Shown here: positions 9,778 through 42,766 of the stretch, piece after piece
Layout of the letters: every line of letters starts with the position of its first letter
How positions within the stretch are numbered: position 1 is the first letter of the stretch
DNA from: Rubrobacter tropicus
GTDB taxonomy: Bacteria; Actinomycetota; Rubrobacteria; Rubrobacterales; Rubrobacteraceae
DNA length: 64,000 nt
Reading direction: 5' to 3'
Assembly: GCF_011492945.1 (NCBI RefSeq)
Contig: NZ_CP045119.1
Coordinates: 1,364,001 to 1,428,000, forward strand
Notes under the pieces: model-generated
Told to the model about the DNA's origin: nothing
Seen by the model: only the letters and a program-made list of their open reading frames with translations
The model's database searches: none
Made by a program: the position numbers and the translations under genes

Positions 9778-9806
9778 AAGGCCCCCGTCTTGTAACGGGG
9801 GCCTTT
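9778..9806 (+). terminator. Intrinsic terminator between rplI and dnaB
   Basis: An 11-bp perfect stem AAGGCCCCCGT / ACGGGGGCCTT with a six-base loop CTTGTA (9778-9805), followed by a short T/G tract. It separates the ribosomal operon from dnaB, whose translation start lies only 23 nt later, so dnaB must have its own transcription start or depend on readthrough. Confidence 0.75.
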
Positions 9807-9828
9807 GTGTTGCATATTTGGGAGTCCT

Positions 9829-12800
9829 ATGGAGCGTCGGGGGAGGATGCGGAGCGTAGAGACGGGGGCCGACGCGGCCCGCGTGCCGCCGCATGACCTG
9901 GATGCCGAGCGGGCGGTAATAGGGGCTTTGCTCGTCTCGGAGACCGCTGTGGCCGCTGTGGCGGAGCAGCTCACGGCCGAGGAGTTTTACTCGGAGACGC
10001 ACCGGATCATCTACGGGGCTATGATGCGGCTCTACTCGCGCGGGGACCGCATAGACCAGATCACGCTCACGAACGAACTCAACTCCATAAACGAGTTCGA
10101 CCGCGTCGGCGGCCGGGCCTACGTCTTCCAGCTCGTCGAGAGCGTCCCGACGGCCTCCAACGCCGCCCGCTACGCCGAGATAGTTCGCGGCAAGGCGCTC
10201 TTGCGCTCCGTCATAGACGTCGGCAGCCGCATAACGGAGGACGCCTTCCGCGAACCCGAGGACGTAACGGAGGCGTTGGACTCAGCCGAGCAGCTCATCT
10301 ACGGCGTCTCGAACAGGACGCTAAAGCAGCACCTGGCCCCGGTCTCGGAGCTCGCGCCCGGGGCTCTGGAGATGATCCAACGCCTCTACGAACAGGAGGG
10401 CGAGGTAACCGGCGTCGAGGCCGGATTCGAGGACCTCGACCGGCTCACGACCGGCTTCCACAAGAGCGACCTGGTCGTCCTCGCCGCCAGGCCGGCCATG
10501 GGGAAATGCCTGAGCGCCGACGCCGAGATCGTGCTCGCCGACGGCAGCGTCAGGACCATCGAGGAGATCTTCCACCAGCGGAAAGCGCGACTGATGACGC
10601 TCGGGAACGGTCACAAGCTTTCCTGGACCAGCCCGAGCGAGTTCATAGACGACGGGGTGAAGCCCGTCTTCCGGGTGACGACGCGCCTCGGGCGTGAGAT
10701 CAAGACGACGCTCACCCACCCGTTCCTTACGATGGGCGGATGGCGAAAGCTCGGGGAGCTTTCGGTGGGCGACCACGTCGCCGTCCCGCGCCGGATGCCG
10801 GTCTTCGGAGACAAACCGCTCGGTACCCACCGCGTCAAACTCCTCGCCTACATGCTCGGCGACGGCAACATGACCGGACGCACGCCCCGCTTCACCAACG
10901 CCAACCCGACCGTGCGCAAGGACTTCGCGGATGCCATCGGCGAGTTCGGTGGTCTGTACTTTCGGGCCGAGACCTCCGACGGCACGCGGACGCCGACGCT
11001 TTGCGTCTGCTCCGACCGCGTGGTCGTTCGACGGCACCGGGAGGAATTTGCCAGGACGTTGCGGGCTGCGGCGCTGCAGTCCGGCCGTCCCGCCAGCGAG
11101 CTCGCCGGCCTGGTGGGGGTCAGCCCGGCATCGGTAACCAACTGGACCCTGGGCAAGACCGTTCCGAACGAAGCCACCGCGCTCAGGCTCCGCGGGGCGC
11201 TCTCCGAAATTTCCGTGGCCCTTGAAGTCTCCGGCCTGGACCGGGCGCGTACCAACGCCCCGAACGCGCTGCGGCGCTGGCTAGACGGGCTCGGACTGTG
11301 GGGATGCGGGGCGAAAGACAAATTCGTTCCTGACCTCGTTTTCCGGACCCCGCGCGAAGAGCTGGCCTTGTTCTTGAACCGCCTCTTCGCGACCGACGGG
11401 TGGGCCACGGTACTGGCTTCCGGACAGACCCAGCTAGGTTACTGCTCAGTGAGCGATAAGCTCGCCCGGCAGGTCCAACACTTGCTGCTGAGGTTCGGTG
11501 TGATCTCCTCGCTACGAGAGAAATCCGTGAAGTACGGAGGCGCACGTCGCCCGGCTTACCAGCTGGACATCACCGGCGCGGACTCGATCCGTGCCTTCAT
11601 CCAGGAGATCGGCATCTTTGGCAAAGAAGAAGCCGTGGTGCGTGTCTCTGAAGCCCTGGAAAACAAACGCCGCCACGCCAACCGGGATCTGGTACCGCGC
11701 GAAGTATGGAAGCTCATCGACGAGGCCAGGGAAGGTGAGTCGTGGTCCTCATTGGCCCGGCGGGTGGGCCACGGTCCGGGGCACAATCTCCACGTCGGCA
11801 CGCGGTCCCTCTCAAGAGAGAGGCTGGCCCTGTTCGCCGAAGCGCTGGACGATGAAGGCCTGCGAGATCTCGCCGGTAGCGACGTGTACTGGGACCGCAT
11901 CGTCAGCATAGAGCCGCTCGGCCTCGAGCAGGTGTACGACCTTACAGTCCCCGATACCCACAACTTCGTCGCCAACGACGTCTGCGTCCACAACACCGCG
12001 CTTGCTTTGAACGCTATATGGCACGCTGCTGGCGAGAAAAAGATGCCGGTTGCGATCTTCTCTCTGGAGATGAGCAAGGAGCAACTCGTGCAGCGCCTCA
12101 TCTCACAGACGACCCGCATACCGGCCCAGGCTTTGAGGAGCGGCAACGTCAAGGCCGAGGACTGGCCGAAGCTCCTCAGGGGCGTGGCGCAGGTCAGCGA
12201 GGCTCCCATTTGGATCGACGATACAGCGGGTGTTACGTTGATGGAGATGCGCGCGAAGGTGAGGCGCCTCGCGAGCCAGCTCGGCGCCACCGGTGGGCCG
12301 CCGCTCTCGCTCGTCGTCGTGGACTATTTGCAGCTCATGATCGGGCAGGGCAGCCGCAACGACAACCGTCAGCAAGAGATCGCCGAGATCTCCCGCGGTT
12401 TGAAGGTCCTCGCCCGCGACCTCGACGTCCCCGTCCTCGCCATCGCCCAGCTCTCCCGCGCCGTCGAATCCCGCCACGACAAACGTCCCATGCTCTCGGA
12501 CCTCAGGGATTGTGTGACCGGGGATACGCTGGTGTTGCTCGCGGACGGCCGTCGCGTGCCCGTGCGAGAGTTGGTTGGAGCGACGCCGCGCGTGCTGGCG
12601 ATGTCGCCCGGAGGGAAGATCGTGGAGTCCGAGGCCGACCGCGTGTGGTCGGTGGGACGGCGTCCGGTCTTTACGGTGAGGCTCGCCAGCGGACGCGAGG
12701 TTAGGGCCACGGCCAGGCACCGGCTTTTCGGCGCTGACGGTTGGATACGTGTGGGAGAGCTGCGTCCTGGCGACAGGCTCGCGCTGGCTCGTGGCGTACC

Positions 12801-13968
12801 GGAGCCGGAGGCCGCGGGAAGATGGTCCGAGGCACGCCTGGCGTTGCTGGGGCACCTGATCGGGGACGGCAGCTACTTGAGCGGCCAGCCGTTACGCTAC
12901 TGCACCGCCTCGGAGGAGAACAGCCGCCTCGTCGCGAAGTCGGCCATAGAAGAGTTCGGCGTTCGGGTGAACCGCCACGCGGGAAGGGACAACTGGCACC
13001 AACTCGTCTTGAGCGGCAACGGCAACCGCTGGCATCCCGCGGGTGTGAACCGTTGGCTGCGCGAACTTGGCATCTTCGGCCAGAGGTCCCACGAGAAACG
13101 CATCCCCGAACCCGTCTTCGGGCTCGGCAACGAGTCCATCGTTGTCCTGCTCAGGCATTTGTGGGCTACCGATGGGACGATCTTTGCTCGCAAACCGGGG
13201 ACGCACGGTTCCTCCACGATCTGCTTCTCCACCAACAGCAGGGGCCTCGCGGACGACGTTGCCGCCCTGCTTCTGCGCATCGGCATCGTGGCCCGGCTTC
13301 GTGAGGTCGACCAGGGCGGACACCGCCCGATGTTCACGGTCTCCGTCTCCGGTACTCGCGACCAGAGACTCTTCCTCGATCAGGTGGGAGCCTTCGGTCC
13401 CCGTCGCGAGGGGGCTGAGAAGCTCGCGCGACTCCTTGCATCCCGTCGCGATGGAACCAACGTGGATACACTGCCCGCCGAGTTCTTCGCAAAGGTGAAG
13501 GCGAGCATGGCAGCCCGTGGTGTCTCCCACCGCGCCATGTCGCTGGCGAGAGGCACGTCCTACGGCGGCTCGTCGCGGTTCCGGTTCGCACCATCTCGCA
13601 CACTGATGGCCGAATACGCCAGCCTGCTCGAAGACGAAACGCTGCTCGCCGACGCGGAGAGCGATCTCTTCTGGGACCGGGTGGTAGAAGTGGTGCCTTC
13701 GGGAGAGGAAGAGGTCTTCGACCTAACCGTTCCAGGACCGGCTTCCTGGCTCGCCGACGGCATCGTCAGCCATAATTCGGGCGCCATCGAGCAGGACGCG
13801 GACATGGTAATGTTCTTGTATCGAGACGAATACTACAATCCCGAATCGGACGACAAGGGCATAGCGGAGGTCATCGTTGGCAAGCACCGCAACGGGCCTA
13901 CGGGCAAGGTGCAGCTCGCGTGGCTGGAGCAGTACACCAAGTTCGCCTCACTGGCCCGCCGCGGCTAG
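9829..13968 (+). CDS. dnaB: Replicative DNA helicase DnaB with two in-frame inteins
   Basis: DnaB is the hexameric 5'-3' helicase that unwinds DNA at the replication fork. From ATG 9829 (GGGAG four bases upstream; ATG 9847 is an alternative) the precursor has 1379 codons. Removing two inteins of 496 and 422 residues leaves 461 residues, a normal DnaB length. The N-terminal domain begins LDAERAVIGALL. Walker A, ARPAMGK-T, is split by intein 1 between K and T. Walker B is visible as LSLVVVDYLQLM. Motif H4 is split by intein 2 between DLRD and SGAIEQDADMV. The extein ends VGKHRNGPTGKVQLAWL. Both inteins must be spliced out for ATPase activity. The gene is preceded by a terminator and followed convergently by fabI. 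Confidence 0.97.
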   Translation: MERRGRMRSVETGADAARVPPHDLDAERAVIGALLVSETAVAAVAEQLTAEEFYSETHRIIYGAMMRLYSRGDRIDQITLTNELNSINEFDRVGGRAYVFQLVESVPTASNAARYAEIVRGKALLRSVIDVGSRITEDAFREPEDVTEALDSAEQLIYGVSNRTLKQHLAPVSELAPGALEMIQRLYEQEGEVTGVEAGFEDLDRLTTGFHKSDLVVLAARPAMGKCLSADAEIVLADGSVRTIEEIFHQRKARLMTLGNGHKLSWTSPSEFIDDGVKPVFRVTTRLGREIKTTLTHPFLTMGGWRKLGELSVGDHVAVPRRMPVFGDKPLGTHRVKLLAYMLGDGNMTGRTPRFTNANPTVRKDFADAIGEFGGLYFRAETSDGTRTPTLCVCSDRVVVRRHREEFARTLRAAALQSGRPASELAGLVGVSPASVTNWTLGKTVPNEATALRLRGALSEISVALEVSGLDRARTNAPNALRRWLDGLGLWGCGAKDKFVPDLVFRTPREELALFLNRLFATDGWATVLASGQTQLGYCSVSDKLARQVQHLLLRFGVISSLREKSVKYGGARRPAYQLDITGADSIRAFIQEIGIFGKEEAVVRVSEALENKRRHANRDLVPREVWKLIDEAREGESWSSLARRVGHGPGHNLHVGTRSLSRERLALFAEALDDEGLRDLAGSDVYWDRIVSIEPLGLEQVYDLTVPDTHNFVANDVCVHNTALALNAIWHAAGEKKMPVAIFSLEMSKEQLVQRLISQTTRIPAQALRSGNVKAEDWPKLLRGVAQVSEAPIWIDDTAGVTLMEMRAKVRRLASQLGATGGPPLSLVVVDYLQLMIGQGSRNDNRQQEIAEISRGLKVLARDLDVPVLAIAQLSRAVESRHDKRPMLSDLRDCVTGDTLVLLADGRRVPVRELVGATPRVLAMSPGGKIVESEADRVWSVGRRPVFTVRLASGREVRATARHRLFGADGWIRVGELRPGDRLALARGVPEPEAAGRWSEARLALLGHLIGDGSYLSGQPLRYCTASEENSRLVAKSAIEEFGVRVNRHAGRDNWHQLVLSGNGNRWHPAGVNRWLRELGIFGQRSHEKRIPEPVFGLGNESIVVLLRHLWATDGTIFARKPGTHGSSTICFSTNSRGLADDVAALLLRIGIVARLREVDQGGHRPMFTVSVSGTRDQRLFLDQVGAFGPRREGAEKLARLLASRRDGTNVDTLPAEFFAKVKASMAARGVSHRAMSLARGTSYGGSSRFRFAPSRTLMAEYASLLEDETLLADAESDLFWDRVVEVVPSGEEEVFDLTVPGPASWLADGIVSHNSGAIEQDADMVMFLYRDEYYNPESDDKGIAEVIVGKHRNGPTGKVQLAWLEQYTKFASLARRG
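10507..11994 (+). mobile_element. Intein 1 in DnaB (P-loop site), LAGLIDADG homing endonuclease
   Basis: 496 residues from Cys (TGC 10507) to Asn (AAC 11992-11994), followed by Thr of the extein. Block A CLSADAEIVLADGSVRTIEE, a block B with TLTH, and the C-terminal VYDLTVPDTHNFVA...VCVHN with penultimate His are all intact, so self-splicing should be possible. Two LAGLIDADG-like motifs (LLAYMLGDGN and FLNRLFATDG) mark a homing endonuclease. Between them lies a helix-turn-helix-like segment (SELAGLVGVSPASVTNW) that could contact DNA. A second such segment (WSSLARRVGHG) precedes the C-terminal splicing block. Confidence 0.92.
12511..13776 (+). mobile_element. Intein 2 in DnaB (motif H4 site), LAGLIDADG homing endonuclease
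   Basis: 422 residues from Cys (TGT 12511) to Asn (AAT 13774-13776), followed by Ser of the extein. Block A is CVTGDTLVLLADGRRVPVRE, block B holds TARH, and the C-terminus VFDLTVPGPASWLADGIVSHN keeps the penultimate His. LLGHLIGDGS and LLRHLWATDG are the LAGLIDADG motifs. Sequence identity with intein 1 is low apart from these blocks, so the two probably arrived independently rather than by local duplication. It lies in the second classical DnaB insertion site. Confidence 0.92.
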
Positions 13969-14020
13969 CGGCGTCCATGCTCCGCGGCTCCGTCCAGCCA
14001 CCGGCCAGAGCGTCCTTGGC

Positions 14021-14056
14021 CGCTGACAAGCTGAAGCGCTGACCGGCTGACAAGCT
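14021..14056 (+). repeat. Post-stop repeat, copy A (GCTGACAAGCT direct repeat)
   Basis: GCTGACAAGCT occurs at 14022-14032 and 14046-14056, with GCGCTGACC between. It lies between the convergent dnaB and fabI genes; its right end supplies the fabI stop codon (CTA, 14055-14057). The rest of the 86-bp dnaB-fabI gap shows nothing else. Confidence 0.5.
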
Positions 14057-14834
14057 ACCTGATCTTCGTCCCCATGGCGTGGTACCCACCATCGACGTGA
14101 ATGAGCTCCCCGGTGGTCGCGGGCCACCAGTCGGAGAGGAGGCTCACCACCGCCCGCCCGACCGGCTCGGGGTTCGTCGTCTCCCATCCCAGGGGCGCCT
14201 GCCTGCCCCACTCGCCCTCTATCTCCTCGAAGCCGCTGATGCCCTTGGCGGCCAGGGTTTTTACTGGGCCTGCCGAGACCAGGTTCACCCTGATGCCCTT
14301 CTCGCCAAGATCGCGGGCGAGGTAGCGGGAGGTAGACTCCAGGGCCGCCTTTGCCACGCCCATCCAGTCGTAGGAGGGCCAGGCCACGCGGGCGTCGAAG
14401 TCGAGGCCGACGACGGAGGCCCCTGGTTTCATCAGGTCCGAGAGGCCGACGGTAAGAGCCTTCAACGAATAGGCCGACGTCTGGACGGCCGTCGCGACCG
14501 AGGGCCACTCGGCCGTGAGGAAGTTGCCGCCGAGGGCGTCCTCGGGGGCGAAGGCGATGGCGTGGACGACGCCGTGGACCTGCCCCCAGCGTTCTTTCAG
14601 GTCGGCGGCGACGGCCTCGATGTCCTCGGGCTTGTTGACGTCCAGCTCAAGAATGGGGGGCTGGGGATCCAGCTTTCTCGCTGTCCTTTCGGTGAGGCTG
14701 CGGGCGCGGCCGAAGCTGCTCAGAACCACCTCCGCGCCCTGTTCGGCCGCCAGCCGCGCCGCTGAGTAGGCTATGGACCGGCGGTCCAGGACACCCGTAA
14801 CCAGCACCTTCTTGCCTTCTAGCAGTCCAGACAT
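14055..14834 (-). CDS. fabI: Enoyl-[acyl-carrier-protein] reductase (NADH), InhA-like
   Basis: 259 residues from ATG 14834, preceded by GGGAGG. The enzyme carries out the last reduction of each fatty-acid elongation cycle in the cytoplasm. The Rossmann start LLEGKKVLVTGVLDRRSIAY and FabI-type motif SYDWMGVAKAALES with Tyr155 and Lys162 (Y-x6-K) are visible. The GLDFDARVAWPSYDWM region and VSAGPVKTLA closely follow mycobacterial InhA, which supports an actinobacterial origin. An upstream in-frame start is possible but lacks a ribosome site. The gene is convergent with dnaB and followed upstream by a MITE-like repeat. Confidence 0.93.
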   Translation of the reverse strand: MSGLLEGKKVLVTGVLDRRSIAYSAARLAAEQGAEVVLSSFGRARSLTERTARKLDPQPPILELDVNKPEDIEAVAADLKERWGQVHGVVHAIAFAPEDALGGNFLTAEWPSVATAVQTSAYSLKALTVGLSDLMKPGASVVGLDFDARVAWPSYDWMGVAKAALESTSRYLARDLGEKGIRVNLVSAGPVKTLAAKGISGFEEIEGEWGRQAPLGWETTNPEPVGRAVVSLLSDWWPATTGELIHVDGGYHAMGTKIR

Positions 14835-14900
14835 CTCGCCTCCCGGGGCTTCGTCCCTCACAAAGTCCGGCACAGTCTACGGAAAGAGCAAAGAGCTTTC

Positions 14901-15059
14901 AGCGGTCAGCTATCAGCCAGTCGTCTCGATCCGTCACGCCGCCCGTTGCCCGAACCGTCGGATATGGCGCCGCCCGGTGGGGACCTGGGCGGCAAGAAGC
15001 TGACAGCTGATAGCGAGGGGCTGCAAAGCAGGCCCGACGCGTGCTGATAGCTGACCGCT
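14901..15059 (+). repeat. MITE-like element, copy B, with 17-bp perfect terminal inverted repeats
   Basis: AGCGGTCAGCTATCAGC (14901-14917) and its exact reverse complement (15043-15059) bound a 159-bp element. The interior 14918-14998 is the conserved core: RTCGTC at its left end, CGTCACG at offset 14, CCCGGT at offset 55 and GGCAA at offset 73. These blocks sit at the same offsets (within one base) in copies C and D. The right arm contains GCGAGGGGCTGCAAAGCAGG. The element ends exactly where the sulfatase stop codon (CTA, 15060-15062) begins. No reading frame is evident inside. Confidence 0.8.
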
Positions 15060-17012
15060 CTACTCGGTCGTCTCCTCCTGCGGGCGTTGCTGCTCGTAGG
15101 AGTCCGTGACGCGGGCCTCCCAGGCCAGCAGGTCGTCCCGGAGGTCCTCTATCTTCTTGTCGCCCTGCTCTTCGATCAGGTTTTTCTTCTCTTCGGGATC
15201 TTCCGAGAGGTCGTAGTACTCCTCGCCGCGGTTGCCGTAGGAGTAGATGTACTTCTTATCCCCGTCGATGCTCGCCAGGCAGGTGCGCTCGTGGTAGCAA
15301 CTCGCCACGAGCCTTCGGTCCTCCGGCGGAGAGAGAAGCGAGAAGCCGGGGTAGTCGCCGCCTTCCACCCTGTACCCGAGCATGTCGGCGACCGTCGGCA
15401 GGACGTCGAGTTCGTTGACGTTCTCCTCGACGCGTCGCGGTTCGGGGTTCTTGGGATCGTGGACGAGGAGGGGGATGTGGAGGCCTTCCTGGTAGATCGT
15501 GTTGTCGTGCTGCTTGAGGCCGTGTTCGCCGAAACCCTCGCCGTGGTCGCCCAGGATCACGAATATGGTGTCCTCGTAGAGCCCGAGGTCCTTGTACTGG
15601 TCGAAGAGCTTCTCCAGAAAGAAGTCCTGGTAACGGACGGTGTTCAGGTACCTGTTCAACTCCGGGTCTGACGAGTACTTCTTCGTGCCGTAGCGCTGCG
15701 GGACCACGTAGTTGTGGTGGGGGGTGACCGTCAGGTACGTGGTCATGAACGGGCCGTCGTCGGCGTTCTCTTCGAGCCAGGCGCGGCTGGGCTTCAGCAT
15801 GATCTCGTCCTCGAACCCGAAGTAGTTGACGCGCTGGTAACCCGTCTTGCTCATGTCCTCTATCGCCTGGAAGTGCCCGTACCCGAAGTTGTCCACGAGC
15901 TGGGGCCTGCGCTCGAAGGTCTCGGTGGCCGACTGGAAGAAGGCGCTGTTGTAGCCCTGCTCTTCCAGGAGCTCCGGCAAACACCGGGCCGGGATGATGC
16001 CAGGCTCGGACTCCGTCTTCTGGGTGTCGAGGGGCGGAGGCACCCCGCAGGCGGTCGCCACCAGCGCCTTTGAGGTGTGCGGGACCACGGCGTGGGCCCG
16101 CTCCGCCATCAGGCTCTCTTCGGAGAGTTCGTCCAGGAACGGCGTCGTGTCGATCTCGTCGTTGTACGCGGTCGTCGATTCCGCGCGCGTCGACTCGAGG
16201 AAGACCAACACCACGTTTCGTTTCTCGGTCTCGGGCGTGGGGGAGAGGCTCGTGTCCGTCGGGAGGGATTCCGGGGAGACGTTCGCCTCGACCTCCGTCG
16301 TGGCGACCTCGTTGACCACCATGTTCGCCAACGGGTCCCTGGCGAAGGCGTTGCCCGCGTTGGTCACGCTCGGCACTACCGAAAGGGAGAAGAGCAGGAC
16401 GGCGGCCAGGCCGACGGTGAGCGGGGCCCGGCCCGGGCTCCCCGGGGCGTCCGGCTGGGGATCCCAGGTGCCGGTAAACAGGCGGGTCAGCAGGGCCGGG
16501 CCCGCGAGGGTGTAGAAGAGGATGACGGAGACCAGGGCCCAGTGCAGGGTCGTCGTCTCCGAGCCGATGGCGCCCTGGATCTCCCCGATCGAGGAGATCG
16601 AGACGAGCACGAAGCTCAGGTCCAGCGTCGAGCCCGTGGTCGTGTAGAAGAAGTGGGCGCTGGTGGTCAGGATCACGACCACCACGACGGCGAGGTGAAA
16701 CAGGATCAGGACCGCGCGCCTGGGCCAGCCGCCCCTCACGACGGCGAAGACGCCGATCCAGAGCGCCGCGAACCCGAGGTTGAAGAGGAGGTCGGAACGG
16801 ACCTGATCCAGAAAACCGAGAAAGCCGGGCGGGTCCGGACGGGTGACTATGCGGACCACTTTGAGCACGAGGTTGTAGACGACCAGGGGCACGAGTAAGC
16901 TCGCGAGGTAGATCCAATCCCCACGCGTCAACAACCTGTCGAGGCGCTTCACGACGCCCGCCCTGCCTTCGTTTGCCGCCTCAAATGCGGCAGAGTTTAA
17001 CAAAATTTTCAC
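15060..17012 (-). CDS. LtaS-like membrane sulfatase / phosphoglycerol transferase family protein
   Basis: 650 residues. About five membrane helices fill residues 35-240, followed by an extracytoplasmic sulfatase-fold domain. The metal site is visible as NVVLVFLESTRAEST (nucleophile Thr or Ser region) and later VILGDHGEGFGEHG (Asp-His pair). The architecture matches lipoteichoic-acid synthase and related polymer-modifying enzymes, which transfer phosphoglycerol or phosphoethanolamine, or hydrolyse sulfate esters. The substrate is not known. GTG 17012 is given as start; GTG 16952 (VKRLDRLLTRGDW) is an alternative because TTAAACT between the two could be a -10 box. The acs gene diverges from it. 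Confidence 0.8.
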   Translation of the reverse strand: MKILLNSAAFEAANEGRAGVVKRLDRLLTRGDWIYLASLLVPLVVYNLVLKVVRIVTRPDPPGFLGFLDQVRSDLLFNLGFAALWIGVFAVVRGGWPRRAVLILFHLAVVVVVILTTSAHFFYTTTGSTLDLSFVLVSISSIGEIQGAIGSETTTLHWALVSVILFYTLAGPALLTRLFTGTWDPQPDAPGSPGRAPLTVGLAAVLLFSLSVVPSVTNAGNAFARDPLANMVVNEVATTEVEANVSPESLPTDTSLSPTPETEKRNVVLVFLESTRAESTTAYNDEIDTTPFLDELSEESLMAERAHAVVPHTSKALVATACGVPPPLDTQKTESEPGIIPARCLPELLEEQGYNSAFFQSATETFERRPQLVDNFGYGHFQAIEDMSKTGYQRVNYFGFEDEIMLKPSRAWLEENADDGPFMTTYLTVTPHHNYVVPQRYGTKKYSSDPELNRYLNTVRYQDFFLEKLFDQYKDLGLYEDTIFVILGDHGEGFGEHGLKQHDNTIYQEGLHIPLLVHDPKNPEPRRVEENVNELDVLPTVADMLGYRVEGGDYPGFSLLSPPEDRRLVASCYHERTCLASIDGDKKYIYSYGNRGEEYYDLSEDPEEKKNLIEEQGDKKIEDLRDDLLAWEARVTDSYEQQRPQEETTE

Positions 17013-17071
17013 ACGAACCCGCCCTCGCAGACCACGCCGCAGGCCCGAATCCTCTCAAGAAACCTCCATGA

Positions 17072-17100
17072 TTGACCGGCGGCGTAACGGGTAATATTGT
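17072..17100 (+). promoter_or_regulatory. Promoter of the acetyl-CoA synthetase gene
   Basis: TTGACC (17072-17077), a 17-bp spacer and TATTGT (17095-17100) give a near-consensus promoter reading towards acs, with a leader of about 120 nt. An overlapping -10 choice is TAATAT at 17092. The rest of the 214-bp space between the divergent genes holds no gene. Confidence 0.65.
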
Positions 17101-17226
17101 ACGGGCAGTTTGGGTGACTTGGAAAGGGAGCCCGTGCAAAAGGCGAGCAGGTAGCGGTTCGGGTCCCAGCGGGGCCTACCGCGTCCGTGAACAGGCCTGC
17201 CGCATGACACGAGGAAAGGGAGAGTG

Positions 17227-19149
17227 ATGGCTGAAGAGACCGAGATCCGCACTTACGAGCCGCCGGAGGAGTTCGCCCGGCAGGCCAACGTGGACGATGC
17301 TTCGGTGTACGACGAGGCGGAGAAAGATTACGAAGGATTCTGGGAGAAGCGGGCGAAGGAGCTCCACTGGTTCAAGGAGTGGGACCAGGTCCTCAACTGG
17401 GACCCGCCCGAGGCCGAGTGGTTCGTCGGGGGCAAGCTGAACGTCGCCTACAACTGCCTGGACTACCAGGTCGAGCAGGGCAGGGGGGACAAGACGGCCA
17501 TCCTCTGGGAGTCCGACGAGCCGGGCGAGGGGAAGGCCTACACTTACTCCGAGCTCACGGCGGAGGTAAAGAAGTTCGCCAACGTGCTCAAAGGGTTGGG
17601 CGTCGGGAAGGGCGACCCGGTCGCGATCTACATGCCCATGATCCCCGAGCTTCCCATCGCCATGCTCGCCTGCGCCCGCATCGGTGCCCCGCACTCGGTC
17701 GTCTTCGGCGCCTTCTCTGGCGACTCTTTGCGCGACCGCATAAACGACTGCGAGGCGAAGGTCCTCGTGACCGCCGACGGCGGCCCCCGCGGCGGCAAGA
17801 CGGCGTACCACAAGAAGAACGCCGACGAGGCCCTCAAGGACACTCCCTCCATCGATAGCGTGGTCGTCGCTAAACGCGTCGGCGAGGACGTGCCCATGAC
17901 GGAGGGCCGCGACCACTGGTGGGAAGACCTCGCGGCCGAGGCCGAAGACGAGTGCCCGGCCGAGGAGATGGACTCGGAGGACATCCTCTTTATCCTTTAC
18001 TCCTCCGGCTCGACCGGCAAGCCCAAGGGCATCGTGCACACCACGGGCGGCTACCTCACCCAGGTCAAGGCCACGACCAGGTGGGTCCTCGACGTCAAGG
18101 ACGACGACGTCTACTGGTGCCAGGCCGACATAGGGTGGGTCACCGGCCACTCCTACCTCGTCTACGGGCCCCTCAGCAACGGGGCGACTACCGTGCAGTT
18201 CGAGGGCACGCCTAGCTACCCCGGTCCCGACCGCCACTGGGACCTCATCGAGCGGCACGGGGTGACGATCTACTACTCGGCCCCGACCGTGATCCGGGCG
18301 TTCATGAAGCAGGGTACCGAACCGCTGGAAGGGCACGACCTCTCCAGCCTTCGCCTGCTCGGTACGGTGGGCGAGCCGATCAACCCGCGGGCCTGGGAGT
18401 GGTTCCACAACAACGTCGGCAAGGGCAACTGCCCCGTCGTGGACACCTGGTGGCAGACGGAGACGGGCGCCATCATGATAGCGCCCCTCCCCGGCCTCAC
18501 GAAGACCAAGCCGGGCAGCGCTACCCGTCCCTTCCCCGGCATCTCGGTCGACATCTACGACGAAGAGGACAACCCCATAGAGGGCGCCGGCAAGGGCAAC
18601 CTCGTGATCACCAGGCCCTGGCCCAGCATGCTCCGCACGATCTACAAGGACCCCGAGCGTTACCGCAAGACGTACTGGGAGCGGCTCGGCGACAAGTACT
18701 TCGTCGAGGACGGCGCCGAGCGTGACGAGGACGGCTACTACACCATCACCGGCAGGATCGACGACGTGATGAACGTCTCGGGCCACCGAATCGGCACGAT
18801 GGAGGTAGAGAGCGCGCTCGTCGGCCACGAGTCCGTCGCCGAGGCCGCAGTTATCGGGCGCAACGACGAGGACAAGGGCCAGGCCATCGTCGCCTACGTC
18901 ATCCTCGAAGGCGACCGTGAGGGCGACGAGGAGCTAATCAAGGAGCTCAACAACCAGGTTAGAAAGTCCATTGGCCCCCACGCGAGGCCGGAGGAGATCA
19001 TCTTCACCCCCGACCTCCCGAAGACGCGCAGCGGCAAGATCATGCGCCGCGTCCTCCGCGGCGTCGCCGAGGGCCAGGAAGACCTCGGCGATACCTCGAC
19101 CCTGGCCGACCCCTCGGTCGTCGACGACCTGAAGGCGGCCCGGCAGTAA
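17227..19149 (+). CDS. acs: Acetate-CoA ligase (acetyl-CoA synthetase)
   Basis: 640 residues, normal for the family. The enzyme activates acetate with ATP and CoA to acetyl-CoA in the cytoplasm. Visible motifs are the AMP-binding loop [45 protein letters not shown], and the C-terminal [10 protein letters not shown]. Lys604 in that last motif is the adenylation lysine, which acetylation switches off in characterised homologues. ATG 17227 follows GGAAAGGGAGAG. Its own promoter and a strong terminator make it a single-gene transcription unit. Confidence 0.96.
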
Positions 19150-19179
19150 AGCCACCGCCCAACCGGACGCGCGCCCCGA

Positions 19180-19213
19180 CGGGGCGGGGACCAGAGATCC
19201 CCGCCCCGTTTTT
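19180..19213 (+). terminator. Intrinsic terminator after acs
   Basis: An 11-bp perfect stem CGGGGCGGGGA / TCCCCGCCCCG with a 7-nt loop (19180-19208), followed by TTTTT (19209-19213). Confidence 0.9.
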
Positions 19214-19283
19214 GGCCCCCGCCGGGCCCGCGTCCTGGCACCTCATTAGAACTTTCTAAGGCTTCCGACGTACGGGTATGTAG

Positions 19284-19289
19284 TAGAAT
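19284..19289 (+). promoter_or_regulatory. -10 box before the zinc protease gene
   Basis: TAGAAT preceded by GTAG, the same extended -10 seen upstream of rpsF and mfd. It gives a leader of about 28 nt carrying the AGGAGG site. No convincing -35 box is visible. Confidence 0.5.
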
Positions 19290-19323
19290 ATCCGCAGTAA
19301 ATCTTCCCTAGGAGGAACAAGAG

Positions 19324-20016
19324 TTGGGCGGTATCGGTTTCGGTTACCTGTTCATTATGATCATCGGGGCCCTGATCTCGGGCGCCGCGGCGCTGTGGGT
19401 GAGGAGCTCGTACAAGAAGTACTCCAAGCAGAGGAGCAACAGCGGCCTCACGGGGGCCCAGACGGCGCGCATGATCCTGGACCGCAACGGCCTCTCGAAC
19501 GTCCGCGTCGAGCCCGTGGCGGGCACGCTCACGGACCACTACGACCCGCGCAGCAAGGTGGTGAGGCTCTCGGAGGGCAACTTCAGGGAGAGCACCATCG
19601 CGGGCGTCAGCGTTGCGGCCCATGAGGTCGGACATGCGATACAGGATGCCTCGGGTTACGTGCCGATGAAGCTGCGCTCCGGGCTCGTCCCGATAGTGAA
19701 CTTCGGCGGCCAGCTCTGGACGCCGCTCTTCTTCCTGGCCATCATCATGGGCGTCTCGACGGGCATAGGCCAGCTGTTCATCCAGCTCGCCGTCATTGCC
19801 TTCGCAGGCGTGTTGGCCTTCCACGTGGTCACGCTGCCGGTCGAGATAAACGCCTCGACCCGCGCCTACGGCCTCTTGACCCGCTACGGTATCCTCTCTG
19901 CTACGGAGGCAGGCGGCACCCGCCGGGTCCTTACGGCGGCGGCCTTCACCTACATAGCCGCGGCCCTCACCTCGCTTCTCACGCTGCTCTACCTGTTCGC
20001 CCTGAGCCGCGAGTAG
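19324..20016 (+). CDS. Zinc metallopeptidase, YugP-like, integral membrane
   Basis: 230 residues, full length for this family. An N-terminal helix (about 5-25) is followed by the zinc motif HEVGH at residues 100-104 and three further helices in the C-terminal half. Between them, PVEINASTRAYGLL is typical of the YugP (DUF neutral zinc metallopeptidase 2) group and likely supplies the third zinc ligand. Such proteases are membrane-bound and their substrates are mostly unknown; they have been linked to envelope maintenance. TTG 19324 is the start, with AGGAGG nine bases before it. A terminator follows directly. Confidence 0.88.
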   Translation: MGGIGFGYLFIMIIGALISGAAALWVRSSYKKYSKQRSNSGLTGAQTARMILDRNGLSNVRVEPVAGTLTDHYDPRSKVVRLSEGNFRESTIAGVSVAAHEVGHAIQDASGYVPMKLRSGLVPIVNFGGQLWTPLFFLAIIMGVSTGIGQLFIQLAVIAFAGVLAFHVVTLPVEINASTRAYGLLTRYGILSATEAGGTRRVLTAAAFTYIAAALTSLLTLLYLFALSRE

Positions 20017-20038
20017 GCGAAACCCGAGCCGATGGACG

Positions 20039-20065
20039 GGGCGGGGCTTTAGGGCCCCGCCCTTT
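20039..20065 (+). terminator. Intrinsic terminator after the zinc protease gene
   Basis: A 9-bp stem GGGCGGGGC / GCCCCGCCC with a six-base loop (20039-20062), followed by TTT. Confidence 0.8.
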
Positions 20066-20154
20066 CTCGTGCCACGGCTCCCGCCCTCGACCCGCAACTT
20101 GAGGTCTGCGGCCCGGGGTCTCGAACCGCCCGGGCGGCACGCGGAAACAGGTTG

Positions 20155-20160
20155 TAGAAT
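20155..20160 (+). promoter_or_regulatory. -10 box fixing the start of the hypothetical gene at 20170
   Basis: TAGAAT lies directly before ATG 20161 and nine bases before ATG 20170. The first ATG would precede the expected transcription start, so 20170 with almost no leader is preferred. Confidence 0.5.
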
Positions 20161-20169
20161 ATGCCCGCT

Positions 20170-20790
20170 ATGGAAGACGTTCGTCGGATAACGAAGAGGC
20201 GGCGCAGGCTCCGGACCGTGGGGGAGCCGCACCCGTGGGAGCCCCGCCACATGCGCCTGGCGGGCGTGCGCGTCGCCGAGTCGGTTGGGAAGCCGGCGGC
20301 CCGGCGCAACGTCACTTTGGGCGTCGTGAAGCACCTCTGGCGCTCCCCGGTCCCCTTCGTCGGGTTCTACCCGCCCGAGGGCGTCAAGGTCACCGAGCAC
20401 CGCAAGTACGTCCCCCGGTCGCCGCGGCGGGTGGACGACACCGAGTACCTGGCCGGCGTCGAGGCCCACAAGAGGTCCTTCGCCAAAGACCTCCAGGACG
20501 GCATGGTCCCGTCAGGACACCTTCCGGGCTACTTCGAGGTGCCGACCGACGAGGGGTGGCGGATCACCCTGGATCTCGTAGAGGGACGGCTGGAACTGGC
20601 AGACGCCTGGGGGCTCGGAACCGAGTCGAAGGTGGCCGGGGACCTCGCCCCCTTCGTCTGGGCTTACAGGCATTGCGGCTTCTGCATCGTCAGCGTCTAC
20701 GACAAGGACGTCGACGGCCTGCGCGACGACCTCCTCTTCGTCGCCAAACGCCAGGGCGTGGAACTCAGGTGGACCAGAAAGGCCGCTTAA
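20170..20790 (+). CDS. Conserved hypothetical protein
   Basis: 206 residues from ATG 20170. No signal peptide or membrane helix is present. The N-terminus is strongly basic (RRITKRRRRLRTVGE), and the middle contains PFVGFYPPEGVKVTEHRKYVPR and HLPGYFEVPTDEGWRITLDLVEG. The C-terminal HCGFCIVSVYDKDVDGLRDDL has two cysteines. I do not recognise the family. Base composition and codon use match the neighbours. The start follows an extended -10 box by nine bases, suggesting a very short or missing leader. A repeat element begins two bases after its stop codon. Confidence 0.6.
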   Translation: MEDVRRITKRRRRLRTVGEPHPWEPRHMRLAGVRVAESVGKPAARRNVTLGVVKHLWRSPVPFVGFYPPEGVKVTEHRKYVPRSPRRVDDTEYLAGVEAHKRSFAKDLQDGMVPSGHLPGYFEVPTDEGWRITLDLVEGRLELADAWGLGTESKVAGDLAPFVWAYRHCGFCIVSVYDKDVDGLRDDLLFVAKRQGVELRWTRKAA

Positions 20791-20791
20791 G

Positions 20792-20873
20792 AGCGGTCAG
20801 CTATCAGCGCGCTCCGGCTTCGCCTCCGCTCTCAGCCATCAGCAAAAGCCAAGCGAGCTGAAAGCTGACCGCT
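20792..20873 (+). repeat. Post-stop repeat, copy F, same 17-bp terminus as copy B
   Basis: AGCGGTCAGCTATCAGC (20792-20808) is identical to the left end of copy B; the right end GCTGAAAGCTGACCGCT (20857-20873) matches it inverted in 16 of 17 positions. Inside is one mini-hairpin module, GCGCTCCGGC TTC GCCTCCGC, then TCTCAGCC. The 80-bp core is missing. It begins one base after a TAA stop codon. Confidence 0.7.
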
Positions 20874-20994
20874 GAAAGCTGGCAGCGCGATTCGCGGAGC
20901 AAATCGCCACAAACAAGAGCGCTTACAGGAACGATTCTCAAAAAAGTACACCTAAAGATGCATCTGGTGGGCGCGAGGCGTTAGAATGTTTGGG

Positions 20995-21000
20995 TATAAT
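20995..21000 (+). promoter_or_regulatory. -10 box before the Crp/Fnr regulator
   Basis: TATAAT, preceded by GGG. It would give a leader of about 55 nt that includes AGAGAGGTAGAAGAG, a weak ribosome site. TTAGAA at 20981 is too close to serve as a -35 box. Confidence 0.55.
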
Positions 21001-21060
21001 GGTGCCACCCGGCACGAGGTGTTGGGGGCAAAGGGTCTGTTAGAGAGGTAGAAGAGCCAG

Positions 21061-21789
21061 ATGCTTTTGAGCCACAACACCGGGGGATTCGCCGCGACGA
21101 CCGCGCCCGAAGGGTTCAGCCTCGAAGATTTCGAGGAGGTTGGCCTCAGGACGGTGGAGCGAAGGTTTTCGCCCAAAGACACCATCTTCGCGCCGGGGGA
21201 CCCCGACGATCAGCTCTACTTTCTTCTTTCGGGCACGGTTCGTCTGTACAAGATCTACGGCGACTTCAAGGAGGCGACCACGGCGCTGCTCAAGAACGGC
21301 GGCATCTTCGGCAAGCTGAACCTCGTCGAGGGCCGCTGGCAGAACGTGTTCGCCGAGGCCGTCACGGAGGCGCGGGTCGCCGGCGTTCAGAAGAGCTCGC
21401 TTGAGATGGTCATAAAGAGGGACCCCGCGTTTGCCCTGAAGCTCTTCTCCTCTTTCTCGGAGCGGCTCCGCCAGTCGGACGAGGTCATAGAGAGCCTTCT
21501 GCACCGGGAGGTCTCGACCCGGCTCGCTACTCTGCTCAGCAACCTGGACGACCGCTTCGGCCGGGAAAACGGGAAGGGTTCGCTGATAGACGTGCGGCTC
21601 ACGCACCAGGATCTCGCCAACATGATCGCCTCCACAAGAGAGGCCGTCTCCAAGGTGATGAGCGAGCTCCAGCGCGAGGGCGTCATAGAGAACCGCAACC
21701 GCCGCATAGCCATCCTCGACCGCACGGCCCTCGCCGAGCACGCCTCGAGGCTCTCGGGCCTCACCGTCGACGGACAGACACAGATCTAG
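21061..21789 (+). CDS. Crp/Fnr-family transcriptional regulator
   Basis: 242 residues. The N-terminal cyclic-nucleotide-binding fold is visible from FSPKDTIFAPGDPDDQLYFLLSGTVRLYK through GGIFGKLNLVEG. The C-terminal winged helix holds LTHQDLANMIASTREAVSKVM, the Fnr-type recognition helix. The usual PRAS-like phosphate cassette of true cAMP binders is not obvious, and there is no N-terminal cysteine cluster for an iron-sulfur centre. The effector is therefore unknown. The gene is single, with its own -10 box, and is followed by the longest repeat element of the window. Confidence 0.88.
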   Translation: MLLSHNTGGFAATTAPEGFSLEDFEEVGLRTVERRFSPKDTIFAPGDPDDQLYFLLSGTVRLYKIYGDFKEATTALLKNGGIFGKLNLVEGRWQNVFAEAVTEARVAGVQKSSLEMVIKRDPAFALKLFSSFSERLRQSDEVIESLLHREVSTRLATLLSNLDDRFGRENGKGSLIDVRLTHQDLANMIASTREAVSKVMSELQREGVIENRNRRIAILDRTALAEHASRLSGLTVDGQTQI

Positions 21790-22140
21790 CGCCGGCAAAG
21801 CCGGCGCGCACGCTGCGCCCTTCGGGCTCCGCTTTCAGCCCGGCGCCGTTGGCGCCTTGTCAGCACGCTCCAGCCTTCGGCTTCCACTCTCAGCACGCCT
21901 CCCTGCGGGAGGCTTTCAGCCCAGTCGTCCGTAGGCGTCACGCTTTATGACACTCGAATCGCAGCGCCATACGTGGCCCGGTTGGGCTTCGCACGGCAAA
22001 AAGCTGAAAGCGGAGGCGCAGCCGGAGCGGGCTGAGAGCGAGGACTGCGAAGCAGGCCGATGCCTGCCGAAAGCGAAGCCCTTAGGGCGCAGCGTGCCGA
22101 AAGCTCGCGAAGCGAGCGTGCTGCGCCGGAAACCTTTCCG
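21790..22140 (+). repeat. Modular inverted-repeat element, copy C (mini-hairpin arms around an 80-bp core)
   Basis: This gene-free stretch of about 350 bp starts right after the regulator stop codon. The left arm is a chain of mini-hairpins (for example GGCGCC/GGCGCC, CCTCC/GGGAGG) joined by linkers of the type T-T/G/C-TCAGC. The core (21922-22001, 80 bp) has CAGTCGTC, CGTCACG at offset 14, CCCGGT at 55 and GGCAA at 73. The right arm carries inverted modules (GCTGAAAGC, GCTGAGAGCGAGGACTGCG, AGCAGGCC). Bases 21861-21898 match 41613-41650 of copy D, inverted, in about 35 of 38 positions. No coding capacity is seen. Confidence 0.75.
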
Positions 22141-22151
22141 GCGCGAGGGCG

Positions 22152-22157
22152 TATACT
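22152..22157 (+). promoter_or_regulatory. -10 box of the ECF sigma operon
   Basis: TATACT nine bases before ATG 22167; the leader would be only a few bases. No ribosome-binding site precedes the ATG, consistent with leaderless initiation. Confidence 0.5.
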
Positions 22158-22166
22158 CAGTCCGAT

Positions 22167-38093: not shown

Positions 38094-39163
38094 CCGAGGC
38101 CGTGGCCACGAACGGGAGCCCGAACGGTCGTCCCGCCGAGAACCTGCTGGAGATGCGGAACCTGAAGATGCACTTCCCGATCAAGGCGGGCGTCTTGAGG
38201 CGGACGGTGGGCCACGTCAAGGCGGTCGACGGGGTCGACCTCGCCATCCGCAAGGGCGAGACTTTGGGCCTCGTCGGCGAGTCCGGCTGCGGCAAGAGCA
38301 CGCTCGCCCGCCTCGTCCTGCGCCTGCTCGAACCGACTGAGGGCGAGGTCCTGTTCGACGGCGAGAACATCCTCGGCTTCGACCGCAAGCGGATGCTCGG
38401 CGTCAGGCGCAACATGCAGATCATCTTCCAGGACCCCTACGCCTCCCTGAACCCCCGCATGTCCGTGGGCAACATCATCGCCGAGCCCCTGAAAACGCAC
38501 GACGTCGGCGATGGCCCCGGGCGCAAGAAACGGGTGCAGGAACTCCTCGAGGTCGTCGGCCTCAGCCCCGAGCACTACAACCGCTACCCGCACGAGTTCT
38601 CGGGCGGCCAGCGCCAGAGGATCGGGGTCGCCAGGGCCATAGCGCTGAACCCGCGCCTCATAATCTGCGACGAGCCGGTGAGCGCGCTTGACGTCTCGAT
38701 CCAGGCCCAGGTCGTGAACCTGCTCCAGGACCTCCAGAAAGAGTTCGACCTCACCTACGTCTTCATAGCCCACGACCTCTCCGTCGTGAAGCACATCTCG
38801 GATCGGGTCGCGGTCATGTACCTCGGCAAGATCGTGGAGGTCGCCGACCGCAAGGACCTCTACGACCACCCCCGCCACCCCTACACCGCCTCGCTCCTCT
38901 CGGCGATCCCGGTCCCGGACCCCCGCAAGGAGCGCGAGCGCAGGCGCGTGGTCCTGACCGGCGACGTGCCGAGTCCCGCCAACCCGCCTTCGGGCTGCCA
39001 CTTCCACACCCGCTGCCCCCGCGCCCAGGACTACTGCAAACAGAACGAGCCGCCCCTGGAGCCCCAGGAGAGCGAAGACCACCGCGCCGCCTGCTTCTTC
39101 CCCGTAAAAGAGGGGCAGAGGATAGACGATGCAGCCACGAGCACGCCATACCGCGTCGAATAG
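38090..39163 (+). CDS. Peptide ABC transporter ATP-binding protein, DppF type
   Basis: 357 residues. Walker [10 protein letters not shown], signature FSGGQRQRI, Walker [14 protein letters not shown]-loop FIAHD. The cysteine-containing extension is [15 protein letters not shown]. Like the OppF paralogue at 31435 it has an Asn/Gly-rich N-terminal tail ([10 protein letters not shown]). It closes the second peptide operon; a repeat element follows its TAG stop with only 12 bases between. Confidence 0.94.
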
Positions 39164-39175
39164 CTGTCAGCTTTT

Positions 39176-39316
39176 AGCAATCAGCCGTCAGCTTCTCGGA
39201 GGACGGCGAAAGATTCTGTCGTCCGGAGAAAAGCTTCTTGCCGGAGGTACTTCGGATCTTGTTCCCGTAGCGGTCGCGCTTTGCGCGGCGTGGCTGAGGG
39301 CTGAGGGCTGATTGCT
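39176..39316 (+). repeat. Post-stop repeat, copy E, 141 bp with near-perfect 17-bp inverted ends
   Basis: AGCAATCAGCCGTCAGC (39176-39192) and GCTGAGGGCTGATTGCT (39300-39316) match inverted in 16 of 17 positions. The stop codon of the DppF-type gene lies in TAGCTGTCAGC just before it. The interior has GTCGTCCGG and a GC-rich stem near 39270-39290 but not the core spacing of copies B, C and D. The right end reaches the promoter region of the next gene. Confidence 0.65.
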
Positions 39317-39329
39317 GACGGCTTGCTAG

Positions 39330-41208: not shown

Positions 41209-41379
41209 GTGAGCATCGCCATCGTATCCTTGCTTCTTTTGATCCCGCTGGCGATCCTCGGGATCATACTCTTCGCCGTGATCTCCGGACGGGCCACGGG
41301 GCGCAACGAGAACCGCCCCGGGGGCACGGGCAGCGACGAGACCAGGCCCGGGGACAGGGGCCCCGGCGGGGAGGAATAG
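41209..41379 (+). CDS. Small single-pass membrane protein (56 residues)
   Basis: GTG 41209 to TAG 41377-41379. One hydrophobic helix (IAIVSLLLLIPLAILGIILF) is followed by a hydrophilic Gly/Pro/Arg-rich tail ending RGPGGEE. AGAAAGG lies seven bases before the start and a possible -10 box TAGTAT near 41149. The clear helix-plus-tail design, ribosome site and promoter support a real gene, but no family is recognised. Confidence 0.6.
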   Translation: MSIAIVSLLLLIPLAILGIILFAVISGRATGRNENRPGGTGSDETRPGDRGPGGEE

Positions 41380-41671
41380 CGGGCTCCTCCCTTCGGTCGT
41401 CGCGCACGCTCCGGCTTACGCCTCCGCTTGTCAGCCCGGCGCTTCGCGCCTCGTCAGCACGCCCTCTCCGAGGGCTTTCAGCCTATCAGCCAATCGTCTT
41501 GGCGCGTTACGGCTTCGCGACATCTGAACCGACGCGCGACTCGCGGCCCGGTCGGGCCCTCGACGGTAAATAGCTGACCGCTGAGAGCGAGGACCTGCGG
41601 AGCAGGCCCGAAGCGTGCTGAAAGCGGAAGCCGAGGGCTGGAGCGTGCTGAAAGCCCGCGAAGCGGGCGTG
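41380..41671 (+). repeat. Modular inverted-repeat element, copy D, between two convergent stop codons
   Basis: The 292-bp space is filled by this element. It begins after the small-protein stop codon and ends at the rpoD stop codon (CTA, 41672-41674). Left-arm modules include GCTCCGGC TTAC GCCTCCGC-TTGTCAGC, GGCGC TTC GCGCC and CCCTC TCC GAGGG-CTTTCAGC. The core (41491-41571, 81 bp) has CAATCGTC, CGTTACG at offset 14, CCCGGT at 56 and GGTAA at 74. The right arm carries inverted modules and AGCGAGGACCTGCGGAGCAGG, the counterpart of copies B and C. Confidence 0.78.
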
Positions 41672-42766
41672 CTAATCGAGCAGGTCTCTGAGCCCCGCGG
41701 CGTGGGGGCTGCTCTTTATCTTGGCGAGGGCGGTGAGTTGTATCTGGCGGATGCGCTCGCGGGTTACGTCGAAGCGCTCGCCGACCTCTTCGAGGGTCTT
41801 GGGTTGGCCGCCGGTGAGGCCGAAGCGGTATTCGAGGACCATGCGTTCGCGTTCGGGGAGGCTGCTGAGGGCCTCGCGCATCCTCGCTTTTAGCAGGGAG
41901 GACTTGGCGAGGTCGTGGGGGGATTCCGAGTCCTCGTCGGCTATGAAGTCGCCGAGTTCGGAGGAGTGGTCTTCGCCCACGGGGGTTTCGAGGGAGATGG
42001 AGCGGCGGGAGACGCGGCGGATGCGGACTATCTCCTCGGCGTCTACTTCCATGATGGCGCCGACCTCTTCGTCCGAGGGGTCGCGGTTCAGTTGGGCCGC
42101 GAGGCTGCGCTGGACGCGGTAGTACTTGTTGATCTTCTCGACCATGTGGACCGGCACCCGGATCGTGCGGCCCTTGTCCGCGATGGCGCGGGTGACGGCC
42201 TGGCGGATCCACCAAGTCGCGTACGTCGAGAACTTGAAGCCCTTGCGGTGGTTGAACTTCTCGACGGCGCGCATCAGGCCGATGTTGCCCTCCTGGATCA
42301 GATCCAGAAGAGAGACGCCGCGGCCTGCGTACTTCTTGGCTATGGAGACGACGAGCCTGAGGTTTGCCTTCGTCAGGTGCGCTTTGGCCCGACGGTCCCC
42401 GCGCTCTATGCGCCGGGCGAGGTAGACCTCTTGCGCTTTGGTGAGGAGGGGGGTCTTGCCGATCTCGTCGAGGTACATCTGGACGGCGTCGCCGGTGTAG
42501 CGGCTCTTCAGGTCGGCCTCCAGTACCTCTTCGACGAGCTGGGTGTCTTCGTCCTCTTGCAGCGTCTCTGTGAGAAAACCCGCGTCCACCACCTCGACGC
42601 CGTGTTCCCGAAGAAGGCCGTAGACTTGCTGGATCTCGTCTGTCGAGAGATCCACTTCCTGGAGGAGTTCGAGCACCTCGCTCGATTCCAGGGTGCCGGT
42701 CTCTTGGCCGGCTTCGAATAGCCCTTGTATCTCCTCTATGTCCCGCAGATCGCGCTGTGGCTGCAA
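41672..42766 (-). CDS. Principal RNA polymerase sigma factor (RpoD/SigA family)
   Basis: 364 residues from TTG 42766, with GGAGAGAGAG upstream. Region 1.2 ([18 protein letters not shown]), region 2 ([20 protein letters not shown], then [19 protein letters not shown]), region 3 ([17 protein letters not shown]) and region 4 ([18 protein letters not shown]) are complete. An N-terminal part ([20 protein letters not shown]) corresponds to region 1.1. These are the marks of a group 1 sigma factor; a group 2 paralogue cannot be excluded. It directs most housekeeping transcription. It is convergent with the small membrane gene across a repeat element and has its own promoter. Confidence 0.93.

Follow-up and report, generated by a model that had tools for sequence, protein, structure and literature searches.

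Dispersed intergenic elements with opposed heptad arrays, often directly behind stop codons, in Rubrobacter tropicus

Results

An element built from opposed heptad arrays lies between fabI and a sulfatase gene

The window, the 64,000-nucleotide stretch of Rubrobacter tropicus DNA analysed here, carries a non-coding element between the genes for an enoyl-ACP reductase (fabI) and a sulfatase (Table 1). The preliminary description had delimited it as 159 bp bounded by a perfect 17-bp terminal inverted repeat. We confirmed the 17-mer AGCGGTCAGCTATCAGC at 14901-14917 (+) and its exact inverse at 15043-15059, and found eight matches in the window (up to three mismatches), compared to 0.12 expected from shuffled sequences. 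The 159-bp bounds were correct as the positions of the two 17-mers, but the left array begins earlier, with AGC at 14894 and TTTCAGC at 14897. The 17-mer itself consists of AGC plus two heptads of an NNTCAGC array and is part of that array rather than a unique terminus. The arrays follow the formula AGC(NNTCAGC)n ... (GCTGANN)nGCT, in which five bases of each heptad are fixed and two are free. Elsewhere in the window, a 1387-aa DnaB helicase frame (9805-13968, +) contains two intein-splicing and two LAGLIDADG stretches (Pfam), possibly representing more than one intein.

Table 1 Features of the element in the fabI-sulfatase spacer and of further copies in the window
Feature	Position	Strand	Basis or remark
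Whole element	14894..15059	.	Sequence reading; absent from 4/4 relatives with both flanking genes
Sulfatase stop codon	15060-15062	-	Element adjoins
fabI (enoyl-ACP reductase) start	14873	-	Other flank of element; gene from Pfam
Left arm AGC-TTTCAGC-GGTCAGC-TATCAGC	14894..14917	+	Sequence reading; terminal AGC-NN-TCAGC is the rule across 91 arrays
85-bp core, CAGTCGTC ... GGCAAGAAGCTGA	14918..15003	+	Alignment of copies; profile matches
Inner right heptads GCTGACA-GCTGATA-GC	14999..15014	-	Sequence reading, alignment
Hairpin module AGC-GA-GGGGCTGCAAAGCAGGCCC-GA-CGCGTGCTGA, closed by pentamer GCTGA	15012..15047	+	Sequence reading, alignment
Outer right arm GCTGATA-GCTGACC-GCT (inverted 17-mer of the preliminary description)	15043..15059	-	Sequence reading, 17-mer matches
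Copy F: AGC-GGTCAGC-TATCAGC, hairpin module, CATCAGC, A-rich loop, GCTGAAA-GCTGACC-GCTGAAA-GCT	20792..20880	.	No core
Composite core element, several hairpin modules	21801..22140	.	Downstream of Crp-like regulator gene
Element with (NNTCAGC)n/(GCTGANN)n arms, strongly diverged interior	39162..39323	.	
Composite core element, several hairpin modules	41379..41673	.	Not in 2 relatives with both flanks

A second copy in the window, copy F, had been described as sharing the 17-mer and lacking the core, and both observations were reproduced. The 17-mer occurs at 20792-20808 (+) and, with one mismatch, at 20857-20873 (-), and the core-only profile matched at 14919-15003, 21922-22007 and 41492-41577 but not at 20792 (12 of the 16 sample matches listed). 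The right array of copy F extends to 20880, beyond the end at 20873 given previously, and the copy begins 1 bp past a TAA stop codon (20788-20790); it is not present in the orthologous spacer of the close relative G006. Its proposed origin as an internal-deletion derivative is unproven: copy F contains a hairpin module as well as an A-rich loop, and it matches a distinct and common class, since in 15 of the 40 distinct inward pairs the loop is no longer than 30 bp. In the two composite elements (21808-22130 and 41390-41665), GCTGA flanks GC-rich hairpin modules whose internal mismatches are GA or GGA; matches to these modules were found scattered in relatives.

The arrays are numerous, intergenic and point inward

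The R. tropicus genome (4.58 Mb, two contigs) contained 201 + 195 matches to GTCAGCTATCAGC with at most one mismatch, compared to 3 + 0 for the reversed pattern. The window and the following 400 kb were used as an unbiased 464-kb sample, in which a home-made gene caller predicted 381 genes (82% coding). Ninety-one arrays of at least two heptads were found there, 88 of them intergenic, while only 19% of the sample sequence is. The terminus ahead of the first TCAGC was AGCNN (A in 48, G in 84 and C in 88 of the 91 arrays). Neighbouring arrays no more than 250 bp apart pointed inward in 26 cases, were tandem in 7 and 5 and never pointed outward; the reversed pattern yielded 0. Loop lengths were bimodal, with 11-13 bp in 8/26 pairs and 81-150 bp in 13/26. 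Short-loop copies of this genome have CAAGAGCAAAA-like loops. One long array (C1:762712-762919) differs from the short, mixed arrays at other sites in that it alternates GGTCAGC and TATCAGC with a period of 14 bp.

In a scan over all pentamers for X-NN-X-NN-X (period 7), GCTGA accounted for 53 of 59 mixed triplets. At period 8 it accounted for 13/14, while periods 6, 9, 10 and 11 gave 1-20 mixed triplets with no dominant pentamer. These data bear on an improbable alternative, namely that the arrays are simply a microsatellite of heptamers, expanding and contracting through replication slippage. Heptamer repeats are over-represented in bacteria according to the covered part of one study (PMC4692102), and pure arrays do exist (48 of the 80 genome_contigs loci listed and the GG/TA array at C1:762712-762919). 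However, slippage yields identical units, whereas here the free dinucleotide varies from unit to unit; the period-7 triplets were mixed in 59 cases and pure in 7, so they are not the identical tandem units of a simple sequence repeat. The opposed arms (26 inward, 0 outward) and the core shared between copies also speak against slippage.

The two arms do not form a fixed inverted repeat

We compared the two arms in 40 distinct inward pairs, taken from the 464-kb sample and loci L001-L080. Dinucleotide agreement between arms was 11/92 when aligned from the outside (13.7 in shuffles) and 13/92 when aligned from the inside (12.9 in shuffles); the best-offset count alone was slightly high (36 vs 29.1, p = 0.026). 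The arms thus share the pentamer, but their free dinucleotides are independent and match no more than expected by chance. Consequently, there is no fixed terminal inverted repeat, the perfect 17-bp repeat cannot serve as the defined end that had been proposed, and the perfect match of the window copy is one draw among many. A perfect hairpin under selection in the arms was rejected because of the same independence.

A core family with hairpin modules is found only in the R. tropicus genome among the samples

Searching the genome with the element (blastn) returned at least 48 matches (40 of 305 candidates scored). After removal of overlapping fetches, 43 core-like copies were aligned and 41 were trimmed to the core, the two most deviant being dropped. 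Median pairwise identity of the 41 cores was 68%, with best pairs at 100, 97.7 and 96.6%; in these three pairs identity stops at or near one of the pentamers TCAGC and GCTGA, beyond which the sequences are unrelated. Hairpin modules flanked by GCTGA adjoin the core in most copies; their internal mismatches, on the GCTGA strand, are GA or GGA. No core was split by a gene in the 464-kb sample (unpaired: 0/15 left halves, 1/16 right halves). The 85-bp core profile gave 16 matches in the 464 kb of R. tropicus and 0 in 473 kb of G006, and 0 in smaller samples of G002, G004, G005, G007, G008 and G106. Even when E values up to 1 were allowed, Rfam returned nothing at the element, and the 41 cores had no consensus fold (alifold -3.3); a structured RNA family was rejected on these grounds.

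Genes for a possible mobiliser were also searched. Y1_Tnp (PF01797) gave 0 candidates in the R. tropicus genome, while the same search was positive in 5/14 control genomes; the reverse transcriptase domain RVT_1 (PF00078) was found in 0/9 genomes of the genus and in 3/14 controls. A retroelement (group II intron, retron or DGR) was rejected because all nine genus genomes lack a reverse transcriptase. It is highly improbable that the unit is an IS200/IS605-like or RAYT-driven REP element, whose pentamer-flanked hairpin modules would be cut and joined single-stranded: GCTGA does bracket the hairpin modules and near-identical units do end at the pentamer, but the genome has no Y1_Tnp candidate, so that the transposase would have to belong to another family or to have been lost.

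Arrays are often placed behind stop codons

An array was scored as placed behind a stop when its start lay no more than 3 bp upstream or 12 bp downstream of the point where an open frame of 150 codons ends; pure arrays with at least four units were dropped. This was the case for 23/82 arrays of R. tropicus, compared to 2.9% of random positions and 6/82 in the opposite polarity. Among the loci listed for two contig collections, the same placement was found for 9/72 arrays in genome_contigs (1.5% random) and, in viral_contigs, for 37/177 TCAGC arrays (1.8% random; opposite polarity 11/177), 47/260 CAGTG arrays (1.5%; opposite polarity 9/260) and 15/92 AGTCG arrays (1.8%). For gene context, 53 clusters of the 464-kb sample were considered, of which three overlapping called genes were dropped. 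Of the remaining 50, 18 lay between convergent genes (background 45/239 gaps, p = 0.013) and 5 between divergent genes (p = 0.15). Twenty-seven clusters stood in tandem gene context: 19 were closer to the 3' end of the upstream gene, 7 were closer to the 5' end and one was a tie (p = 0.029).

An alternative explanation, possible but doubtful, is that the unit is a gene-end regulatory element (a terminator, mRNA 3'-end stabiliser or processing site) whose heptads are the binding sites of a cellular factor. Selection would keep the opposed arrays behind stops, and the pentamer would drift with the factor and give rise to species dialects, as in DNA uptake sequences. Such a role agrees with the right-polarity placement in R. 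tropicus and in unrelated contigs, which also holds for two other pentamers, and with the enrichment between convergent genes. It is at odds with the lack of complementarity between the free dinucleotides of the two arms, which means that no perfect stem is selected, and with the core having no consensus fold. Nor is there an intrinsic-terminator signature: GC stems followed by a T run occurred at 7 sites in the region 14000-22500, compared to 5.2 in shuffles, with none inside 14894-15059.

Orthologous sites in relatives are mostly empty, and some carry another heptad

Triple heptads numbered 394 in R. tropicus and 2, 12, 0, 1, 4, 2, 5 and 5 in eight other genomes of the genus, most of which are fragmented assemblies, although G006, with 2 triple heptads, is rated 100% complete; the control gave 0 in all. 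Comparison of the orthologous fabI-sulfatase spacers, the check suggested in the preliminary description, revealed spacers of 30-43 bp without the element in 4/4 relatives with both genes. Together with the many copies, the near-identical copies in unrelated flanks and the core restricted to this genome among those sampled, the empty spacer agrees with the dispersed, non-coding and insertion-like character proposed earlier; the element is not confined to a single site common to all relatives, and other copies exist. No target-site duplication was seen when the empty sites were inspected by eye. Approximately 20 bp of the relatives' spacer are replaced in R. tropicus at fabI-sulfatase and at 39162, and several left junctions lie directly at the stop codon. 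At 39162, spacers are 29-47 bp in G002, G004 and G005, and G006 has a different, 322-bp insert.

Eighteen element sites were tried, 15 of which had at least one relative with both flanks (4/6 + 11/12). Reading the printed spacers by eye, we found no heptad arrays in any relative shown at 10/15 testable sites, AGG-type heptads at the same place in at least one relative at four (C1:1431331, 1445761, 1701130, 1730530) and a TCAGC array in G005 at one (C1:1741906). Part of the family has therefore been inherited in place with a change of heptad, which a simple jump does not explain. The spacer before the gene starting MTEIVAVHGREILDSRGNP, which we take to be enolase, carries an insert in 4/4 relatives with a homologous interior but AGGTTNN-type arms, while R. 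tropicus has TCAGC arms. Within this interior, GCGTAGAGTTACG is common to 3/4 relatives, with one mismatch in the fourth, and the neighbouring blocks are also homologous.

Strict AGGTTNN triplets numbered 12 in R. tropicus, 84 in G004, 24 in G006, 12 in G005 and 0-4 in the others, while TCAGC triplets numbered 394 in R. tropicus and 1 in G004. With the looser AGGYY pattern (at least two units), R. tropicus had 52 arrays in 464 kb and G006 had 63 in 473 kb; both spellings thus coexist, and the strict counts alone differ strongly. The AGGYY arrays of G006 were behind stops in 13/63 cases (3.1% random), and neighbours were inward in 7, tandem in 8 and outward in 0. In the sample of G007 (L348-L357), GCTGA recurs at period 8 rather than 7 (11 vs 4 mixed triplets). 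The spacer that keeps its opposed arms and homologous interior while the heptad differs by species, and the reversed abundance of the two spellings in R. tropicus and G004, favour a gene-end element; the empty sites in relatives count against it, because the genes there do without the element.

Opposed heptad arrays occur beyond the genus

Four consecutive heptads were found in 34/396 genomes of the phylum, a count to which pure arrays in the large genomes of a single genus (g35) contribute. In genome_contigs, at least 117 stretches had five heptads; among the 80 loci listed, arrays were mixed at 32 and pure at 48. Mixed arms occur in many phyla, and opposed pairs of them that enclose unrelated interiors are seen, for instance, in candidate division KSB1 (L117), Chloroflexi (L138), Moorena (L144), Phycisphaerae (L155) and Nitrospiraceae (L177); neighbours at mixed loci were inward in 14/20 among the loci listed. 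GGAACTT, TCAACNN and GGCCACN type heptamer-like runs were observed near TCAGC arrays at L160, L110 and L178.

In viral_contigs, whose label is the collection's own and may include host DNA, 60 of the 80 loci listed were mixed, with neighbours inward in 38/60 and outward in 7/60, and some contigs carry arrays between many genes (e.g. L403, 22 arrays in 9.2 kb). Scrambled-pentamer controls were not clean in this collection: CGACT gave 80 stretches and CACTG was also abundant among the matches listed, and many CACTG loci, when inspected, belonged to a TCAGT/CAGTG dialect and shared the left-arm polarity behind stops. We therefore claim no enrichment of TCAGC over other pentamers in viral_contigs; the clean negative controls are the reversed pattern (R. 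tropicus and genus) and the all-pentamer scan. Five viral_contigs loci (L570, L574, L579, L606 and L616) show the TCAGT/CAGTG dialect between many genes, often with loops like AAAGGCAAAA.

Discussion

In R. tropicus, copies of the element are interspersed, orthologous sites in relatives are mostly empty, the arms have a strictly inward polarity, arrays are often placed at stop codons and the core is absent from the sampled relatives. These observations support a lineage-amplified, non-autonomous insert. Whether it is more precisely a short MITE-like or REP-like insert that multiplied in the lineage and settled in spacers, often right behind stops, is in our estimate an even call. Heptads of TCAGC and two free bases, in arrays that face each other, would form its ends, and the 85-bp core and GC-rich hairpin modules would be optional parts. 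A trans-acting recombination machinery may read the pentamer in the arms, and this putative machinery would copy or insert the unit. Against a simple mobile insert stand the arms, which are not a fixed terminal inverted repeat, the replacement of approximately 20 bp of ancestral spacer at two sites, the fact that no target-site duplication, Y1 transposase or reverse transcriptase was seen, and the lack of a split long copy able to carry a gene in the 464-kb sample.

More tentatively, we consider a class that spans phyla and viral-labelled contigs, defined by opposed heptad arrays (five fixed and two free bases) directly behind stops. The pentamer would be a species dialect (TCAGC, TCAGT, AGGTT and AGTCG types), and both arms would switch dialect together while the interior is inherited, so that an undescribed machinery might write or correct heptads at gene ends.

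The element resembles MITEs in being short, non-coding and dispersed in many copies, with inverted ends and presence or absence at orthologous sites (empty in 10/15), but it differs from them in lacking a fixed terminal inverted repeat; no target-site duplication was seen, and the 464-kb sample showed no split core that would point to a parent transposon. REP/BIME elements lie near gene 3' ends. Similar to these, the element is extragenic and consists of modular composites with imperfectly palindromic hairpin modules; unlike REP/BIME with RAYT, it has heptad arrays and its genome encodes no Y1 transposase. DNA uptake sequences are likewise dispersed short motifs with a species-specific spelling, but they are single 10-12 mers, not heptad arrays.

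The closest published repeats are TAACTGA heptamers, direct repeats in Beggiatoaceae, Cyanobacteria and Bacteroidetes (MacGregor 2015, PMC4679880; cited in PMC4853749, in the parts covered). As far as the covered parts of PMC4679880 extend, they likewise form intergenic heptamer arrays that are patchy across phyla. TAACTGA equals ACTGANN with NN = TA, one base from GCTGANN, and judged by this spelling the repeats look like a TCAGT dialect. They differ in being direct repeats, apart from one inverted case, and in lying mostly a short distance ahead of start codons, and the covered parts of that paper contain no opposed arms, core or dialect comparison. The GGGAATC and GGGGA(C/T)T heptamers of Xanthomonas and Nostoc also form intergenic arrays but are G-rich and, in the covered part of PMC4692102, were studied as quadruplex formers. 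Searches of the open-licence literature returned no account of heptad arms that face each other, of their position at stop codons or of a change of dialect, and no publication on in-frame peptide repeats (QLSAISYQLS and similar); titles retrieved with heptamer spellings showed no link to bacterial intergenic repeats among the matches listed.

That heptamers recur in the spacers of bacteria is a long-standing observation, made mainly for direct arrays or microsatellites. In the present case they form the two ends of a dispersed element that has a polarity, a position rule at stop codons and species dialects, in a genome in which searches for a Y1 transposase and a reverse transcriptase found no known mobiliser. 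Testable questions follow: which factor reads the pentamer, by what route units are copied with no target duplication, and whether the element is kept by a function at gene ends or by selfish spread.
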